A stretch of 64,000 nt of DNA from Phascolomyces articulosus. Taxonomy: Eukaryota > Mucoromycota > Mucoromycetes > Mucorales > Lichtheimiaceae. Within the stretch, counting starts at the first letter, position 1, and every line of letters starts with the position of its first letter. Below are positions 52,334 to 64,000 of this stretch, piece after piece. A program made the position numbers and the translations under genes. The stretch lies in the NCBI GenBank assembly GCA_025677815.1, contig JAIXMP010000031.1:124001-188000 (forward strand). The letters are read 5' to 3'. The notes beneath the pieces are model-generated. The model did not search any database and was not told the origin of the DNA. It saw only the letters and a program-made list of their open reading frames with translations.

Positions 52334-55171
52334 ATGCCTTTTTTGACAGTTACTGCTGCACGTCGTTGTTGTTGCATCATTCATCATAACAACAGTAGCA
52401 AAAGTGCCACCACTCGATCATCATCTCATTTGACTTTGAATAAGAGATCCTCCACCGCCACATCATGCATATCACGTTATCATCCTAGTTTCCAACGAGG
52501 CATACCAAGAATAGTAAGACGAACGACGTATCATCAGCATAGATTTTATGCAACAGAGAACACAACAAATGAACTTGGCCATAAAAAAAAGCTGGGTCGT
52601 CGTTTATTTTGGACTTTGGGAGGAGCAGTGGCTACTGGATTAGCAATTTATTTCTTGAGCCAAGATGTGGAACATATTGAGATTGCCAGCGGAGCTCATA
52701 AAGCAGTACCCTCTTTGGCTTTGCACCCGAAAAAAGGTGGTGCCAAAGATTTACCGATTGTCACACATCAATTAGATGATGATAATCCACAAGCGTTAGA
52801 GAGAATCGAGAAACCGCGAGTCGTCATTCTTGGTGGAGGTAAATATATAAAACGAAAAAAGATCTTTGTTTTTCAACTAATCTATTGGTGATGATACTTT
52901 TTTAACCCGGTTTGGAAAAAAACACAGGGTGGGGCGCTGTAGCCGCTTTACAAGAACTTCATGGTGATGAATACAATGTGACCTTGATTAGTGATAATAA
53001 TTATTTCTTATTTACGCCATTGTTACCCAGTGCTACCGTGGTAAGTAAGGAAAATACCCTTTTTTTGTAGTTATTAATTTTATGCATACTATCTAAATAT
53101 TATTCTTGTATATCTATCATTTGAATTGTTGGGTAATGGATATATTGCTTACAATAGCTCTCACCATGATATGTAAATTTACCAGGGAACATTGGAAATG
53201 AGATCATTATTAGAATCATTAAGAAAAATCGTATCACGTGTTCATGGTCATTTCTTGGAAGGCACTGCAGTAGATATTGATCTTGAAAATAAATATATTG
53301 AAGTGATTGGTGCTGATGCATCCGATGATGATCAACGATTTTATGTTCCTTATGATAAATTATTGATTGCTGTTGGATCGACTAGTATTACCCATGGTAT
53401 TGAAGGGTTGGAACATACATTTCAACTAAAAACAATTCAAGATGCCATGAGGATTCGACGCACTGTTACTTCCAATGTTGAACGAGCCGCCTTACCTACT
53501 ACTTCACCAGAAGAACGAAAACGATTATTGAGTATCGTCATTTGTGGAGGTGAGATACCATCATAATATGAGGACAAAGTAATAATACCTATGAATATCT
53601 AATGAAATAATGGATTTTTTTCTTTTAGGTGGTCCAACTGGTGTCGAGTTTGCAGCAGAAGTTTATGATTGGATGAATGAAGATCTGGTGAAATGGGCAA
53701 GTAATATTACTAAAAAGTAATTATATTGATGATTTGAGCACTGTGCTGTTCTAACATAAATTTTAATACTCTAGTTCCCAAAAATTCTCCGTGAAGATAT
53801 ATCAGTGACCATCATCCAATCCAGGGACCACATATTAAATACATTTGATGTGGATATTAGTAAATATGCCGAACGAAAATTCAATCGTGAAGGCATTAAT
53901 GTCATTACCAATGCACGCGTATTACGTATTCTAAGGGATAAAATAGTTTACAAGTTGAAAAATACAAAAGAAGGTGCTAATGGATTTGGTGATGTTCCAT
54001 ATGGCCTTTGTTTATGGTCTACGGGTATTGGTAATGTACATCTATCTATCTTTCTCTAGTAGGATAATATATAACTCCTTCAGCTAATGTATATTCATGT
54101 ATTTAGCCATGACCCCTTTTGCAAAAATGATTGCCCAGAAACTAGGAAAGCAAGTCCATCAACGAGCCATCCAAACAGATGCCTTTTGTCGAGTATTAGG
54201 TCTTCAAGATGATTCATCAGTATTTGCAATTGGAGATTGTGCAACAATTAAAAATGTCAAACTTTTAGAACACATCATGGAAATTTTTGAAGAAGCAGAC
54301 GAGTAAGTAGTGCTTACTAATTCTATAGGGATGTGATTGGGTGATATTTCCTGTTGATTATTAAAAGTATACACTTTCTATGATCGTACATATGTAGGAA
54401 CAAAGATGGAAGTTTATCGTTGGACGAATTTGCAACCGCCGTGGATCAAATGAAAGATAAATATCCATTAACACGACAACATTTAGGTGAACTTGTCCAT
54501 TTATTTAAAAAATACGATGTGGATCATAGTGATACACTGGAAGTAGAAGAAATGCGTTGCATGTTGGGTGATATCGACAAGAAAATGACTCAGTTACCTG
54601 CAGTAAGTTTCAATTTTTTTTAGTGATGATAATAATGATAATAAGACGACAGACGTCCAGACGACGATTCACATTTTTAAGAGATAGAAAGGAGGAGGAG
54701 GATTTTATCTCACATGATTCATTGCACATTTAAATATCGTTGTCATGATTAAAATAATAATAGACAGCCCAAGTAGCCAGTCAACAAGGAGCTTATGTAG
54801 GTCGGTTATTGAATCAATTAGCACAAGAAGAGCATGCGATCAAGAATCAAAAAGTGGAACCTTTCCAATACCGACATTTGGGATCACTCGCTTATTTAGG
54901 AAATACCGCTGTTGGTGAATTTGGTTGGGGATATAAAATGATCGGTGGCCTTTATGCTCAGTATTTGTGGCGATCTGTATATTGGTCGAACCAGGTAAAC
55001 GTTATTTTTATTTTATATTTAAGTATCTCATCCATTGGAAAATGAAAAAAAGTTTAATGAAAACTTTAACTTTTTATATTATATTAATAGGTGAGCTTGA
55101 GAACAAGGATTAATTTAAGTATTGACTGGACCAAAGGTGCTTTATTTGGAAGAGACATTACCACTGTATAG
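52334..55171 (+). CDS. NDE1: EF-hand alternative NADH dehydrogenase (type II), mitochondrial
   Basis: A rotenone-insensitive flavoenzyme that passes electrons from NADH to ubiquinone without pumping protons. Nine exons (52334-52838, 52928-53040, 53186-53549, 53629-53696, 53775-54030, 54107-54302, 54398-54602, 54764-54994, 55091-55171) give 672 residues. An Arg/Ser-rich presequence is followed by one membrane-type segment (FWTLGGAVATGLAIYFL). Then come the FAD dinucleotide fold (VVILGGGWGAVAAL) and the NADH fold (VICGGGPTGVEFAAE). An insert carries two canonical EF-hand loops (DENKDGSLSLDE and DVDHSDTLEVEE), so calcium control is likely, as in the external fungal enzymes. The C-terminus (HLGSLAYLGNTAV, WSNQVSLRTRINLSIDWTK) is typical. 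The intron after exon 4 uses a GC donor. External (NDE) rather than internal orientation is inferred from the EF-hands. Confidence 0.93.
53697..53774 (+). other. GC-AG intron in the NADH dehydrogenase gene
   Basis: The intron starts GCAAGT and ends CTAG. Only this donor joins exon 4 (DLVKW) to exon 5 (FPKILRED) in frame; the nearby GTAATA would shift the phase. GCAAGT is the usual form of the rare GC donors. Confidence 0.8.
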
Positions 55172-56091: not shown

Positions 56092-56112
56092 ATGTCACGA
56101 AATCGATCACGC

Positions 56113-56148
<36 letters not shown>

Positions 56149-59100
56149 TCTACCACTCGTTCGCCACCACCCTCTTTACAACAACAACAACAACAACAGC
56201 AACCGCAACCGCAACCGCAACAACCAAGTAATAGTAACAGTAGCAGTAGTAGGGGTATTGACATTGTTCCTTCTTCCATTGAACAATCACTTCAAGATTG
56301 GCTCTCTCGAAGCATTTCTGACAATTCGCCGATCTTGGATACAAAGTGTGGTTGTTGTGGCCAAATCGATTGTGAAATTTTTGAGGCGTTAGGAAATACT
56401 GTAAAAAAATTAGAAGGAGATGCTCGTTTAGCTGCTGGTAAGCCATAACATACCAAAGATAGCCTCCTCTTCCCCTTCCCTTTTCCCCCTTCTTCTTCTT
56501 CCTCTCCTCCTATTTTCGATTTGTATATATATATATATATACTTGTATACTGATGCAGGGAAAGAAATTGGACAGAGTCTTTTACATAAACATGAATCGT
56601 ATATTTTGGAATCAAAACAAGTCAAAGCCGATTTGGAACAGCAGGTAAAAACCCCTATGATGTTTATAAAAAAATGCTTCTATTTCATGGTGCTCTGTTT
56701 GTGTAACCTTTCAAAATATCTCAAAATAATACAACAGTTAGATGAAGCACGAGAAAAAGCACAACAATTGGAACAATTATTAGAAGACGCAGATTGTACT
56801 CGAAGAGAACTTTTAGATGAACATAGTAAAACAAGTTGGGAATCTCAAAAGACTCAAAAGGTAATCAAGTGTTATTGGAAGTGGATGACGATGGATGATA
56901 TTCATTATTATTATTATTATTTATAGACCTTAAGAGAAACAGCAGCGGATTTAGAAGTAGCCAATGCACGTTGTACACAACTCATGAATGAATTAAAAGC
57001 GGAAACAATGGAAGTGGATAAATTACGTATATTTAAATTCATGGTTCGACAAGCTGATGTGCGTGAAGAAAATTTACGTGCCAAGGTGAATTCACTTATT
57101 ATTATTATCATTAGCTATCGTTCGTTAGATAGATACTCACATCTTATTTTATATAGTTGGAAGATACAAAACAAGAATTAGCGGTATCAAGAAAAACAGA
57201 ATTAACCTTGGAATCTAAACATAGAAAACTCAAGTCAAGATATGGTAAATAATATTATTTCGTGTATGAGAATGCACAAAAGGCAACTAAATTAAATAAT
57301 AATATGCTAAATACCATCTCCTTATTATAAAAAGAAACGGTATGCAGTGCATACGAAAGGTTAAAATTGAACCAACAGGAGTTTGGACATGGTTGTGGGC
57401 CAGATAATCTGACTTGGCTTCGTGAATCAAATGAGAAGCTGCGGAAAGATGTACTCAAGGTATTATAAACATAAACATTTATTTATTATTATAGATATGT
57501 TTTTATTTATACTCAAAATTTTTAATGCACATATTATGAATATAGCTTACGACAAAATCTTTAACGGCATTTACAATGACTACTACAACGGAATCACCTA
57601 CCGACTTGCAGCAACAGCAACAATCGAATCATAATAATAATAATAATCCTCAACAACAATTTATCACATTAATCAAAGAACTTGCATCAGCAAATAATAA
57701 ATTAAAAACAGATTTATTGGAATGTCGTGAATTGCTATCAGAAACACGTCATGAAGTCATTACTTTGAATTGTCGAATAGAAGATTTGGAAAAGGATAAT
57801 AGTAATAACAGTAGTGGTGATGAACGATTATTACAACATCAATATCCATGGCCAAATAGTACTGGAGGAGGAGGACGTCATGAAAGAGTACTAAGTACAT
57901 CAGCCCCTCAAGATGACTCTTTAATGAAATGGCCGCCTACCATTGCTCCTTCTTCGAGTACCTCCTCTTCTAGAAGGTTATCTCAACAACAACAGCAAAA
58001 GCAAAAGGGAGGTCCCATAAAATCTTTACGTACACGGCGTGCCACCTCTTCTTTAATTACTCCTCCAAAAGATTTACCTACCATTGCACCATCACCTACC
58101 GCATCTACCTCCACACCTACACAAACAACAACACCTGCAGCCTCCATTGTGCATCATCATTATCATTATCATATGCAACATCAGCAGCCACAACATCCGC
58201 TGCATCAGCAGGAAAAAAGTGCTATGGTGCCTCCTCCTCAATCATCATATGACTCGATTAGTCAAAATGAGGATGATACACTTGCTCCATTACAAGACAC
58301 TCCATTACCAAGGAAAATAGCCGATAATATTAATCTGCAAAAGCATATAAAAGAGGTAAACATCCATTATTATTATTTATGACATATGTATACGTCTATT
58401 TATACATAAACAAATAACAATGATGCTAAAACAAAAAATATGGTCTTATTAAAATTTTATAACTAGTCAAAAACAGATAAATTATCTTTACCACCCCCTA
58501 CTATGAAAAATTCTGTATCCTTTTCATCCCAGGCTACAAGTACCATTAGTAGTACGGGAGCAGGTGATCTTGATTTGGAGGATGATGGACGACAGCATCA
58601 GGAACTGGAGGAGGAAGAAGAAGTAGAAGAGGGAGGATCACCTTATCATCAATTGAAACATCATGTCGCACAAGCATTACAAAGATTACGTGCTACTGAT
58701 ATTCGTGCATTAAATCGACGTTTGAAACGTGCATTTGATATTTTGGAATTAAGTGCCATGAGTAATTCCATTATTGAGAATATATTGGTGGATGTTGATG
58801 CATTAAGGACACGGTTTACTTGGATAGAGCAACAACAAGGATTAGGAGATAAGCAACCATTACAACACCATCAACAACAAAGTAGTGATGAGTTATTATC
58901 TTCCTCCCCTTCGTCATTATTAATTTCATGGCAACACGATGGATCCATGCAAGAATTTTTCCCCATGTTACAGATCATGCAAGATATGCTTCAAGAGATT
59001 GGACAATTACGTAGCACCATGAATGATTTACAAGTGGAATATGTCAAAAAAGTAGAAGAAAACGATATTCGTGCTGAACAAGAGGTGATTCGGAAACGTG

Positions 59101-59786
59101 AAATTCGTCGCCGTACAAGTACTTTGACCAGTAGTAACCATCCTAGCAATCAACCACCCACCATTGTGACTTGGTTAACCAATGTATTTTTTCAACCTTC
59201 GTCATCTTCCAATACTCGACAACAACAACCACAACATATCATGGATGATAATAAAACCTTGGTACGGTCTGTATCGCATGATTCTATTATGGAACAAAAA
59301 AACAATCACCCTACCAAACCAAATAGTTCAACAACAACGAGTAAAGCGATTCTTCGACATAAAAAGAGTGATATCGATCGTCATGGACCACCTTCCAGTT
59401 ATCCACGTGTATCCACCGAAAAACGAATGGCGACTGCCAACAAGAGTATGAGTACGAATAATTTAATGACCACCAGCCACCACCACAGCACTGGTGGCAG
59501 CAGCATTAATACGAGTGGTAGTAATAGTACAAGTCATCATAGTACAAGTCAACCAAGACCTATTCCTTATCCTAAATTAAGAGCTTCCAAAAGTGCCGGA
59601 GGATCTGTACGAAGAAGTAAATCCATGCAAGCACCTGCATTAGAATATGCTGCTGTCAAACGAAAAAAGAGTTTGGGATTAAATACTTCGTTGGTCGATC
59701 TTGGTAGTTCTCCTGATATTGATGTGGATTGGAAAGTCGGTAGTGCTTTTGGTGGTGCTACTACAAGCTGGCTTGGTAATAAATAA
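56092..59786 (+). CDS. Long coiled-coil protein with CC1-box-like motif (candidate dynein adaptor)
   Basis: Eight exons (56092-56437, 56559-56644, 56738-56860, 56927-57085, 57157-57244, 57335-57459, 57546-58355, 58467-59786) sum to 3057 nt, 1018 residues. A Gln/Ser/Ala-rich N-terminus is followed by CGCCGQIDCEIFEALGN. At about residue 110, DARLAA joins GKEIGQSLLHKHE across an intron. Residues 125-310 are predicted coiled coil (LEQLLEDADCTRRELLDEHS). A second helical block at about 645-700 (VAQALQRLRATDIRALNRRL) and a Ser-rich basic tail follow. Exon 2 has a second acceptor six bases downstream (56565) that would give LAAEIGQSLLHKHE. This closely resembles the 'AAxxG' CC1 box by which BICD2, Spindly and TRAK/HAP1 bind dynein light intermediate chain. 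The motif is seen; the function is inference. No other family recognised. Confidence 0.7.
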
Positions 59787-61238: not shown

Positions 61239-64000
61239 ATGGAAGGCCAGCACCCCATTAAACCGGGTTCGAAGGAGTTTGCTCATTTATTTCCAACTGG
61301 CACATCCAGTGATACTGAAGAAACTGTACCTACAGGTTCTCCCTCTTCAACACGTCCTCCCATAGACTATGTCATTGTCTTCAAGTTCCCTACCAAAGGA
61401 AAAGAACGCGAAAAGTTACAATCGGAAGCACAGAATCAATTCGACATTTTAATTACCAAATTGAATCGTGTGGGACTTTCCTATCAAGTACAAACCGATC
61501 GACGTACCCAAGGCACATTATTAGTGTTGGTGACTTGTCCGATTTTTGTCTTGAGCGAAGAGTTGAAACGCGAACGGTAAAAACAATAATAATAAATTAG
61601 TAACACAAGATATAAATTGGATAATATACAATGTATAAAGTGGATGAGGGTTCCTTTGACCTTTCTAACGACAACCAACTATATATATTGATAGGATACG
61701 TGATTTTTTATTGGGTATTCGAGCCAGCGAATTCGATAATGACGAAGATGAAAAAAAGGATATTTTTATTTCCAATGTGCATGAACTGACAGAAGCTGAA
61801 AGACTTCGTATTGTCTATGAAATGTTAACTGAAACGGAAGCGGAAGGAGGGGCTAATATTTCACCTGAAGTGGATCCCTATGTGGATAGTATTTTTCCTT
61901 TGCATAATGATCAATTTAATAAGGTAATAATATAAATGAGGAAGCAGGTGAATGTGTGTCATGGAATAAATGATTTCTAAAAAGGATGGGAAACGTTGCT
62001 TCATATTTTAACATGCTTGTTTATTTGTTGTTGTTGGAATAGGAATGGATCCGAACCTGGTCTAAAAAATCCTTGATTAATGATCAAGACTTGAACAAGA
62101 TTCGTAATCAATTTGGTGAAAAGGTGAGTACAATTGTTTCACGTATAATAACATTAGATCCACTTCAACCTTACCCTAAATCAATCAACTAACCGTAATA
62201 AAACATAGATTGCCTTTTACTTTGCATTTCTACAAAACTATTTGATCTGGCTTGCCGCACCCTCCAGCATTGGCTTCTTTATCACTTTATTTGGATTGAA
62301 ATCCCTCAGTATTTGGTATTCTATCACTATGTTGATATGGTCTGTAGTATTTATTGAAATGTGGAAACGACGAGAACAAACTTTGGCATTGCAATGGGAT
62401 GTACGTCATTGTTCAAAACATGAAAAACAACGACTTGAATTTAAAGGTGATCGTATGATACGAGATGAAGTGACGGGAGAAGAGGTACCTTATTGCCCTG
62501 CTTGGAAAATCTTTGCAAGACGTGCCATGTCCTTCCCTGGTGTGGCTGTGGGTGCCCTCTTTTTAAGTGTGATTGTAGGATGTGTCTTTGTGCTTCAATT
62601 ATTTTTACATGAATATTACACGGGTCCGTTCCGTCAGGTGTTGGTACGTTATTTTTTTTTCAGTTGGGTTGGATAGAAAAAGAATGCAGAAAGATGGTTA
62701 AAGTGTGTTTTACTAATGGATAGCTTTTCCTACTATTGGATTATTTAGCATTATGCGCCTACGATTGGTTATGTACTACTTATCCCCACCATGTCAGGTA
62801 TCTATAGTTCATGGGTTAAATTGTTGAACAATTGGGAAATGCACAAGACTGAATCCTCCTGGGAATATCATTATACCCAAAAGATTTTCATTGCCAATTT
62901 CTTGGTTGCTTATCTTTCACTGGTAAAAAATATACCTTTTAATAGATCCGTCCATCATTAGCATACTATTTGTTACTCATCTGCTTGACTCTTATATAGT
63001 TTTTCATTGGATGGGTATATATTCCATTTGGTGATCATGTCTTGCCCTACTTGACTGAACTCAATATCAGCCACAGTCATACTAAAGTAGATTTCAATCG
63101 ATTACGGGGACAATTGATATATTTTATCGTGACTGGTCAAGTAATTGGATTTGCTACTGAAATGTTACTTCCTTATGCGATGAATCTTTTATTACCCAAA
63201 GTCAAAAAGATGGCTCACAAGAAGAAGAAAAGCAAAGGAAAAAATAGTGAAAGTAGTAGCAGTTCTAGCTCTGAAGAAGAAGTAACACAAGAGGAAAACA
63301 AGAATGGTATTGAATGTCGACTGGATCCAAAATTATTGAAAAAGATTTATCGACAGGTGGATTTACCTGAATATAATATTTATACTGATTATGTCGAAAT
63401 GGTGATCCAAGTACGTTATTGATGGTAGGGATTCAAGAAATAGCATGATAGGTTGTATTCTTATCCATCTTATGTTTATTATTTTTTTAGTTTGGCTATG
63501 TGAGTATGTTTTCCACTGTTTGGCCACTCACTGCATTTTGTTGCATGATCAATAATTGGATTGAACTTCGTGGTGATGCTGTCAAGATTTGTAAATATAC
63601 TCGAAGACCCATCCCATACCGGGCGGAAGGTGTTGGACCATGGATTGGCAATATGGTAAATCTTATTTTTAGGAAACAATATGATTTTATCATGGAATAT
63701 ATAACAATATAATATATTCTGACTTCAAAAAAAAAAAAACTAATCATAGGAAACACTGGTCTGGTTATCATCCATTACTATGGCCTCTTTTGCTTACTTG
63801 TTCCATCCATCCACCAATATTCATTCCCCATATACACCCATCTTTACCATTCTCGCCATCTTGTTATCAGAGCATCTTTATTTGTTTATTCGATCAGTGA
63901 TTCGATCCAGTTTGAACGCATTACCTAGTTGGTCCGATATCATGATTCGTAAAAGTGAATTAAGAATGAAAAAAGTTTGGTTACAACGCCTCGTGGGAGG
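61239..64000 (+). CDS. TMEM16/anoctamin-family membrane protein (Ist2-like), 3' end outside the window
   Basis: A multi-pass ER or plasma-membrane protein of the anoctamin family (phospholipid scramblases and ion channels; yeast Ist2 tethers ER to plasma membrane). Eight exons are seen: 61239-61576, 61695-61923, 62043-62123, 62209-62643, 62749-62922, 63000-63410, 63491-63655 and 63750 to the edge, giving about 694 codons so far. The cytosolic N-domain (IDYVIVFKFPTKGKER) leads to the family hallmark IAFYFAFLQNYLIWLAAPS before the first membrane span. WKRREQTLALQWDV and the later helices GYVSMFSTVWPLTAFCCMIN and LFHPSTNIHSPYTPIFTILA follow. A Lys/Ser/Glu-rich cytosolic insert lies in exon 6. 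The start was placed at MEGQHPIKPGS rather than at an upstream in-frame ATG (61146), because that extension is encoded by a poly-T leader. The C-terminus is not available. Confidence 0.93.

Follow-up and report, generated by a model that had tools for sequence, protein, structure and literature searches.

Do fungi possess dynein adaptors with a CC1 box, a kind known from animals? This question is raised by a gene on contig JAIXMP010000031.1 of Phascolomyces articulosus, located in a stretch of 64,000 nucleotides (hereafter, the window) in which a first-pass annotation had proposed a candidate Mucoromycota adaptor of this class. Our study classifies its product as a probable fungal CC1-box adaptor. 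The available text of one review names HookA and the Num1-type cortical anchor as fungal dynein adaptors (PMC7649786). In the literature available to us, our searches found no CC1 box in fungal dynein adaptors, the spelling variants 'CC1 box' and 'CC1-box' apparently being indexed apart, and the only link of 'CC1-box' with fungi was a review citing 'fungi' in the title of a reference. They also returned no paper linking the annotation 'M protein repeat protein' with Aspergillus.

Gene structure and the splice junction within the box

According to the splice model, the gene is intact and comprises eight exons, with every intron GT-AG and an unbroken frame from the ATG at 56092 to the stop codon ending at 59786 (Table 1). 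Its product of 1016 amino acids is 100% identical to an uncharacterised protein of Phascolomyces articulosus identified by protein search (BDA99DRAFT_522244, here P0001). The box had been read as DARLAA joined to EIGQSLLHKHE at about residue 110, and this reading agrees with the public model, which has AAEIG: DARLAA closes exon 1, EIGQSLLHKHE begins exon 2, and the two occupy residues 110-126. It is important to note that the intron within the box has two in-frame acceptors six bases apart; the AAEIG join takes the downstream AAG, and the upstream CAG would yield DARLAA-GK-EIGQ, destroying AAxxG. AAGKEIG is the form predicted for Circinella minor (P0003) and for Zychaea (P0004), whereas the gene model of Circinella umbellata (P0002) reads AAEIG. 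A paralog on contig C45 of the same genome has an intron at the same place, with an acceptor that gives AAAIG.

Table 1. Positions of the exons and sequence features of the gene within the window.
Feature	Positions	Strand	Basis
Exon 1, residues 1-115 and first base of codon 116	56092..56437	+	splice model; identical to P0001
Exon 1 content: low-complexity N-terminus, Cys motif, first half of CC1 box	56092..56437	+	
Cys motif CGCCGQIDC (C86, C88, C89, C94)	56347..56373	+	alignment, motif count
CC1 box part 1, DARLAA (110-115) and first base of codon 116	56419..56437	+	splice model
Tandem acceptors: CAG ending 56558 (AAGKEIG); AAG ending 56564 (AAEIG, public model)	56556..56564	+	
Exon 2, up to residue 142	56565..56644	+	splice model; P0001
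CC1 box part 2, EIGQSLLHKHE	56565..56596	+	splice model; P0001
Exon 3 (143-183), coiled coil	56738..56860	+	splice model; helix predicted in relative P0005
Exon 4 (184-236), coiled coil	56927..57085	+	splice model; P0005 helix prediction
Exon 5 (237-265), coiled coil	57157..57244	+	splice model; P0005 helix prediction
Exon 6 (266-307), first coil ends	57335..57459	+	splice model; P0005 helix prediction
Exon 7 (308-577): Q/N-rich break, Spindly-like block, linker	57546..58355	+	splice model
Spindly-like block LIKELASANNKLK (349-361), L-Theta-X-E-Theta	57669..57707	+	motif definition in available text of PMC9481740
HHHYHYHM (510-517)	58152..58175	+	alignments; HHHYH in ascomycete relatives
Exon 8 (578-1016) and stop: C-terminal helical region, basic/Ser-rich tail	58467..59786	+	splice model
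Conserved C-terminal block 1 (650-684) RLRATDIRALNRRLKRAFDILELSAMSNSIIENIL, putative cargo-binding region	58683..58787	+	alignment, model
Conserved C-terminal block 2 (741-775) FFPMLQIMQDMLQEIGQLRSTMNDLQVEYVKKVEE	58956..59060	+	alignment, model
Conserved Trp/Phe helix WLTNVFF (813-819)	59172..59192	+	alignment, model

Conservation of the box among fungi

Three protein searches, two of which scored a capped candidate set, identified relatives in Mucorales, Umbelopsis, Endogone and the basidiomycete Tilletia, and the third returned 1691 matches, in which the named members among the matches listed are ascomycetes. Using AAxxG[QK]x[LI][LI] as the strict pattern, we found the box in 117 of 162 retrieved proteins: 85 of the 120 matches listed from the ascomycete search, 29 of the 39 Mucoromycota proteins and all three from Tilletia. 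Five others carry variants of the box and 40 are without it. Inspected by eye at their sequence starts, 33 of these 40 are gene models that miss the first part or read through the box intron; among the rest, likewise judged by eye, four retain AAxxG followed by other residues, two have AAGQ and one is ambiguous. The last cysteine of CCx4C lies exactly 20 residues upstream of AA in all 117 strict-motif proteins. The box is also kept in ascomycete genes whose models suggest an intron elsewhere, between GQ and ALL. The stretch DARLAAEIGQSLLHKHE, with which the long helix begins, contains the most conserved 13-residue windows of the family, the lowest entropy among 524 such windows of a 26-sequence alignment belonging to those that start at 112-114. 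The ortholog comparison across Mucoromycota suggested in the first-pass annotation did not show the loss that had been named as a refuting outcome: AAxxG persists among the relatives and so, for the most part, does the d/e/a register.

The ascomycete members, uncharacterised Pezizomycotina coiled-coil proteins such as ANI_1_72104 of Aspergillus niger (P0051), align with an hhalign probability of 99.3 and an E-value of 4.8e-20 over 263 columns. The Cys motif, the CC1 box and the Spindly-like block are in register, and HHHYH is common to both; however, the C-terminal region lies outside the hhalign match, FVKDI/FVRDI stands for LIKEL, and the coil has a gap of 14 columns.

Heptad register and predicted structure

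As the CC1 box is defined in the accessible portions of PMC9481740 and PMC7655957, a long coiled coil opens with AAXXG, and this arrangement is found here. The A, A and G of the box fit heptad positions d/e/a in 32 of 36 sequences, and g/a/d in 4 of 16 ascomycetes, on a hydrophobicity scale of our own from which these three residues were excluded and which is not a standard coil predictor. BICD2 likewise has A at d and G at a (PMC7655957, available part), as does BICDR1 on our scale. The AlphaFold2 monomer model of the relative P0005 predicts a helix of 187 residues (56-242; block with pLDDT of at least 90 over 71-220), a break, and then a second helix that starts at 277, a few residues ahead of L283. 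By arithmetic from this monomer model the first helix would measure about 28 nm, shorter than the uninterrupted coil of about 35-39 nm that other adaptors have up to the break in the available text of PMC9481740.

The Spindly-type motif and the C-terminal region

In the second helix after the break, LIKEL matches the Spindly motif L-Theta-X-E-Theta as defined in the accessible part of PMC9481740. The block lies near the start of that helix, 235 residues after AA, a distance close to the roughly 234 of human Spindly by the residue numbers (A23/A24, F258) in the same available text. A tight Spindly-type pattern occurs in 20 of 22 Mucoromycota and, as FVK/RDI, in 16 of 16 ascomycetes (F-V-K/R-D-I in the alignment), and in neither of two Tilletia proteins; a relaxed pattern is found 200-208 residues after AA in all 85 strict-motif ascomycetes. 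Among segments of residues 60-420 the block ranks second in conservation, and in Mucoromycota it is as conserved as the CC1 box itself (0.43 versus 0.41 bits). It was not seen in the C45 paralog among ORFs of at least 35 amino acids and is apparently absent there. The best PDB match of the block is CDK5RAP2 (E 0.04), which is a centrosome protein and not an adaptor. For the HBS1 heavy-chain site (conserved Gln, acidic patch), reading the alignments gave no clear candidate. In the C-terminal region, a fold search with its model (pLDDT 68.1) returned 79 matches at E <= 10 and none at E <= 0.001, and a Pfam scan found no family at cut-off.

These observations bear on an alternative that we consider unlikely, namely that the CC1 box binds the light intermediate chain (LIC) without activating processive movement, the protein serving as a scaffold or tether in the manner of JIP3/RILP or of a cortical anchor. 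The short first helix would suit such a role. So would the uneven record of the Spindly-type motif, which ascomycetes have in altered form, which was not found in Tilletia and which the paralog seems to have lost, so that conservation extends further for the CC1 box than for the activation motif. However, the equal conservation of LIKEL and the box in Mucoromycota, and the location of LIKEL directly after the helix break, as the Spindly motif lies in adaptors, argue for an activating adaptor.

Profile comparisons with animal adaptors

The first-pass annotation had considered the TRAK/HAP1 form especially similar and had proposed profile comparison with the adaptor families. The remark on TRAK/HAP1 is supported: a pooled box profile of 36 sequences has as its only PDB match (177,635 sequences, up to E 10) the CC1 box of TRAK2 (E 0.013; TRAK2 DLELAARIGQALL aligned with fungal DARLAAEIGQSLL), but HAP1_N stays under its cut-off and no Pfam BICD model appeared in scans of the window protein or its relatives. 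An ascomycete full-length profile finds BICDR1 in PDB, through the CC1 box (EKDLVLAARLGKALLERN), as the second to fourth of nine matches (E 0.048-0.17). No PDB adaptor was found with the Mucoromycota-only box profile, which missed TRAK2, with the single window sequence (three matches) or with the 26-sequence Mucoromycota full-length profile (five matches), and with a pooled N-terminal profile generic coiled coils (RSC8, myosin) lead, BICDR1 being fourth among the best 60 of 101 matches. Scored directly, the 15-residue box of BICD2 obtains 0.3-0.4 bits from the two box profiles. BICDR1 reaches 6.0 bits with the Mucoromycota one, under the best (12.1 bits) of 19,926 scored shuffled BICDR1 stretches used as decoys; a 16-residue TRAK2 piece reaches 19.7 bits with that profile, a score inflated by the short target.

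HAP1_N (PF04849) is the top Pfam match of three of four real fragments and the sixth for A. niger, and it is absent in all four when only the 15-residue box is scrambled. Its gathering cut-off of 33.9 bits was not reached: the best listed score is 21.2 (Umbelopsis fragment), and fragments of the window protein score 13.6 and 16.4 bits. It was found in three of six fragments (none in P0028, P0017 or P0039) and, below cut-off, in three full proteins of a set of 26 and two of a set of 16; it is absent from the Pfam scan of the full window protein and has no match at E <= 0.001 in the six frames of the genome. An N-terminal Hook domain was not found either: HOOK does not match the window protein and is missing from the families listed for the 26 members scanned. 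Filing the protein under HAP1_N, BICD or Hook was rejected, as the Pfam scans of the protein and its relatives show these families below cut-off or not at all. The only strong Pfam match in any member is that of P0018, which carries an extra YPEH2ZP domain, and no profile search places the protein in an unrelated family at that family's cut-off, an outcome that had been named as contrary to the proposal.

A convergent AAxxG in a structural coiled coil, located for instance at a septum, a spindle pole or a microtubule-organising centre and with a partner other than dynein, would be consistent with a likeness to animal adaptors that is not significant outside the box, with the generic coiled coils that outscore adaptors, with the adaptor-free single-sequence and Mucoromycota-only searches and with the match to CDK5RAP2. 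We regard it as improbable: the small residues occupy core positions, the box, coil, break and motif occur in order, TRAK2 is the sole PDB match of the pooled box profile, and the HAP1_N signal is lost on box scrambling. A motif arising by chance, from the way exons join or from coiled-coil composition, can practically be dismissed, and an exon-joining artefact was rejected. In favour of it are the six-base ambiguity of the acceptor and the AAGKEIG of some gene models; against it, the motif is conserved in different phyla, in ascomycete genes with a differently placed intron and in the C45 paralog.

Dynein and dynactin genes in the same genome

The genome encodes a dynein light intermediate chain (DLIC) with helix 1 ASNQVIANFFQSLLLRK, including ANFFQSLL; three PDB matches of this helix contain a passing stretch, and each of them is a dynein light intermediate chain (E 0.3-1.1), one being the LIC1 peptide crystallised with BICD2. 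A dynein heavy chain (DHC), p62 and a p25 match are also encoded, the p25 family model matching 4 of 14 prokaryote control genomes as well, over cut-off in one. Separate HOOK_N matches occur on contigs C17 and C29. The Spindly-type motif after the helix break and the LIC helix 1 were both found, and neither had been used in picking the candidate.

Discussion

Sequence and model keep one order: CC1 box in adaptor register, long helix, break, Spindly-type motif and C-terminal region. Because these adaptor marks follow one another in order and similar uncharacterised proteins occur in many fungi, a type of dynein adaptor known from animals may be in use in fungi as well. On the basis of sequence and predicted structure, we consider it fairly likely that the product is an activating adaptor of cytoplasmic dynein-1 that works as a coiled-coil dimer. 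Its first coil would lie along the dynactin filament, LIKEL would dock on the pointed-end subunit p25 and the C-terminal region would hold cargo; the cargo-bound adaptor would link dynein and dynactin, and minus-end transport would start. The four-Cys motif 20 residues upstream may, speculatively, cap or cross-link the start of the coil.

The protein is like Spindly, as described in the available text of PMC9481740, in having a CC1 box, a long coil, a break and L-Theta-X-E-Theta. Its likeness to TRAK/HAP1 is seen in the box only, whereas the four-Cys motif, HHHYHYH and a C-terminal region of its own belong to the fungal family, and it differs from BICD2 and BICDR1 in that the BICD2 box scores near zero with the fungal profiles. 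The Hook-type HookA of A. nidulans would share the proposed function, and both would use DLIC helix 1, but the window protein is without HOOK_N.

A wider reading, to which we give even chances, is that this is an activating CC1-box adaptor family older than the Mucoromycota/Dikarya split, providing a dynein route beside Hook and bearing a fixed four-Cys cap before the LIC pocket; in the Phascolomyces group, the six-base tandem acceptor could act as a switch for LIC binding, with AAEIG as the binding form and AAGKEIG as the non-binding one.

If true, a CC1-box adaptor in Mucoromycota and Ascomycota would be a second adaptor class in fungi, and the CC1-box class may predate the animal-fungus split. 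Since the gene is present in tractable moulds and its loss in Aspergillus can be tested at once, the question of the cargo and adaptors of fungal dynein becomes directly testable.

Gene structure and the CC1 box

The gene lies in a 64-kb window of a 47.4 Mb genome assembly of 110 contigs. Over its full 1016 residues the product is the same as BDA99DRAFT_522244 of Phascolomyces articulosus, which is named only as a hypothetical protein. Its CC1 box, the AAxxG motif of dynein cargo adaptors, is split by the first intron between LAA and EIGQ; the first-pass annotation had joined these exons to read DARLAA + EIGQ, and the public Phascolomyces model, also AAEIG, agrees. Two tandem splice acceptors fall inside the box: the acceptor AAG gives AAEIG, as in the public model, and the upstream acceptor CAG would give AAGKEIG, in which an inserted Gly-Lys breaks AAxxG. 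Both forms are present among the public models of close relatives, with the insert in those of Circinella minor and Zychaea, and the acceptors may constitute an on/off splice switch of binding to the dynein light intermediate chain (LIC). The flanking genes encode an alternative NADH dehydrogenase upstream (Pyr_redox_2, NDH2_C; window 53177-55045) and an anoctamin downstream (window 62209-62676); no dynein link was seen in either of them.

Features of the gene and of related loci in the same genome
Feature	Location	Strand	Remarks
Gene under study	window 56092-59786	+	eight exons, all introns GT-AG
Four-cysteine motif CxCCx4C	window 56347-56373	+	conserved; upstream of CC1 box
Tandem splice acceptors inside CC1 box	window 56556-56564	+	in-frame, 6 bases apart
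Histidine-rich motif HHHYHYHM	window 58152-58175	+	HHHYH common to Mucoromycota and Ascomycota members
Conserved Trp/Phe helix WLTNVFF	window 59172-59192	+	near C-terminus
Second gene copy (paralog)	contig C45, about 866170-869368 (locus 865900-869700)		
Second DLIC-like gene	contig C89, 892000-894800		

In the part of Lee et al. (PMC7655957) that treats BICD2, the box is defined as EKIQAAEYGLAVLEE, and A43 and G47, at core positions d and a, form a pocket for LIC1. Outside the box, BICD2 and Spindly are without apparent similarity in the comparison given by Lee et al. 2018 (PMC5841405), and the class is therefore defined by the motif and not by overall homology. Judged by its sequence, the window protein is a member of this class, because it carries the defining motif.

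Distribution and conservation of the family in fungi

With residues 55-330 as the query, 32 of 3264 candidates matched at E <= 0.001, the species-named ones being from Mucoromycota. A profile of 26 of them retrieved 35 proteins at E <= 1 among 7988 candidates scored, newly including a partial Endogone protein and three from Tilletia (E 2.5e-27 to 3.9e-24). The third query was an ascomycete sequence, for which 1691 of the 7995 candidates scored fell at E <= 0.001; the 120 matches listed are hypothetical, automatically named or nameless, and the species-named ones are ascomycetes. The three groups can be joined because profile comparisons match Ascomycota (16 sequences) with both Mucoromycota (26 sequences; probability 99.3, E 4.8e-20) and Tilletia (3 sequences; probability 98.8, E 1e-16). 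The Mucoromycota-Ascomycota alignment places the cysteine motif, the CC1 box, and LIKELASANNKLK against FVRDILQDNANLQ all in register; the C-terminal regions fall outside it.

The proposal of a CC1-box protein in Mucoromycota is supported by its relatives there, 29 of 39 having the strict pattern AAxxG[QK]x[LI][LI], as do 3/3 Tilletia proteins and 85 of the 120 listed from the ascomycete query. Variants occur in three Mucoromycota and two ascomycete models, and 40 proteins have neither form; read by eye, 33 of these lack the exon or read through the intron inside the box, four have AAxxG followed by other residues, two have AAGQ and one is unclear. Among the listed matches of the ascomycete query, many Aspergillus and Penicillium models begin in, or read through, the intron between GQ and ALL (e.g. 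P0073, P0134, P0146), and therefore public annotations often lose the motif.

The lowest-entropy windows of the whole protein fall in the box (0.35 bits, versus coil means of 1.39-1.74). A home-made hydrophobicity scale, fitted to flanking residues with A, A and G excluded, places these three at heptad positions d, e and a in 17/17 Mucoromycota, 3/3 Tilletia and 12/16 ascomycete proteins. The last Cys of CxCCx4C is always 20 residues before AA (117 strict-motif proteins), and the four cysteines may cap the dimer through a bound metal or through disulphides.

Similarity to animal adaptors

The first-pass annotation had found the TRAK/HAP1 form especially similar. This likeness stands for the box itself: TRAK2 124-139 (E 0.013) is the single PDB entry retrieved by the pooled profile (42 columns, 36 fungal sequences) at E values up to 10. 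It does not extend to HAP1_N family membership, which was rejected, the matches being below the cut-off wherever bits were shown (3/26 Mucoromycota proteins, best E 1.2e-4; 2/16 ascomycete, best 0.006). HAP1_N was not found by Pfam in the full-length window protein, nor at E <= 0.001 in the six frames of the genome. Among six fragments it was the best Pfam match of those from Tilletia and Umbelopsis P0030 and the second-best of the one from Mucor, and was absent from P0028, P0017 and Fennellomyces P0039. In a set of four it ranked first for the Umbelopsis, Tilletia and window fragments and 6th for that of A. niger, and scrambling 15 box residues removed it in 4/4. Hook family membership was also rejected.

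Against the PDB, the ascomycete profile places BICDR1, which shares the d/e/a register on the home-made scale, 2nd to 4th of nine matches (E 0.048-0.17) on its CC1 box, outranked by a myosin chimera. RSC8 and myosin rank first with a pooled 284-position profile, which BICDR1 (E 0.0019) and TRAK2 (E 0.03) match over the box and BICD2 (E 0.058) over the coil that follows. The single sequence, the full-length 26-sequence profile and the Mucoromycota-only box profile found no adaptors in the PDB. With the Mucoromycota box profile BICDR1 scored 6.0 bits, lower than the best decoy, and the BICD2 box 0.3-0.4 bits with either box profile.

Coil organization, C-terminal region and paralog

The portion of D'Amico et al. 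(PMC9481740) on adaptor layout gives the order AAXXG, HBS1, coil, break and Spindly motif (L-Theta-X-E-Theta), the last usually at the start of the coil after the break. An AlphaFold2 monomer of the relative P0005, built with 27 relatives, has helices at 56-242, 248-268 (short) and from 277, and the conserved block LIKELASANNKLK starts within the last, at residue 283. On this model, AAxxG, coil, break and L-Theta-X-E-Theta would follow the same order in the window protein. The block ranks second in conservation among segments of residues 60-420, and in a few Mucoromycota (P0002, P0003, P0006) it begins with F or V. With a relaxed pattern, its distance from AA is 200-208 residues in 85/85 strict-motif ascomycetes and 151-235 in 27/29 Mucoromycota, where the low extremes may be spurious; it was not found in the Tilletia proteins. 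The best PDB match of the block profile is CDK5RAP2 (E 0.04), whose stretch near residue 658 (SDLIQLVKELYTDNQHLKK) likewise conforms to the Spindly pattern; the pattern is common in coils, and the argument therefore rests on position and conservation.

The C-terminal region is helical and poorly modelled (pLDDT 68.1), and a fold search with it gave no significant match. Near the C-terminus, ascomycete members carry a Trp-rich motif, for example GWVWGRWG; this motif and WLTNVFF may contact cargo or a membrane. The paralog retains the CC1 box and C-terminal region, but those of its ORFs that reach at least 35 aa show no LIKEL (Spindly-like) block, and Fennellomyces P0039 has the same layout, apparently without the block.

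Partners in the genome and proposed function

The genome contains DLIC (contig C78), dynactin p62, dynein heavy chain, a p25 (DCTN5) match and two HOOK_N matches; p25 is the least certain, because the DCTN5 model also matches 4/14 prokaryote control genomes. The C-terminal exon of DLIC reads GASNQVIANFFQSLLLRKASSGG and matches four PDB entries (E 0.3-1.3). Three are light intermediate chains of dynein, one of them the LIC1 peptide crystallized with BICD2 (6pse), and the remaining one is a Mto2p-binding protein without a passing stretch. The section of PMC6336354 on human LIC reports that a phenylalanine pair and a leucine pair are required for adaptor binding, and both are retained in the Phascolomyces DLIC. 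A further set of DLIC matches lies on C89; no helix 1 was seen in its listed ORFs of 50 aa or more, and this gene is possibly specialized or truncated.

Our literature search on fungal CC1-box adaptors found no paper. Both the adaptor anatomy and the partner genes are present, and the simplest reading is an activating dynein adaptor, for which we infer binding, activation and cargo: LIC helix 1 would sit in the AA/G pocket of the CC1 box, the first coil would run along dynactin, LIKEL would dock on p25, and the C-terminal region would take cargo.
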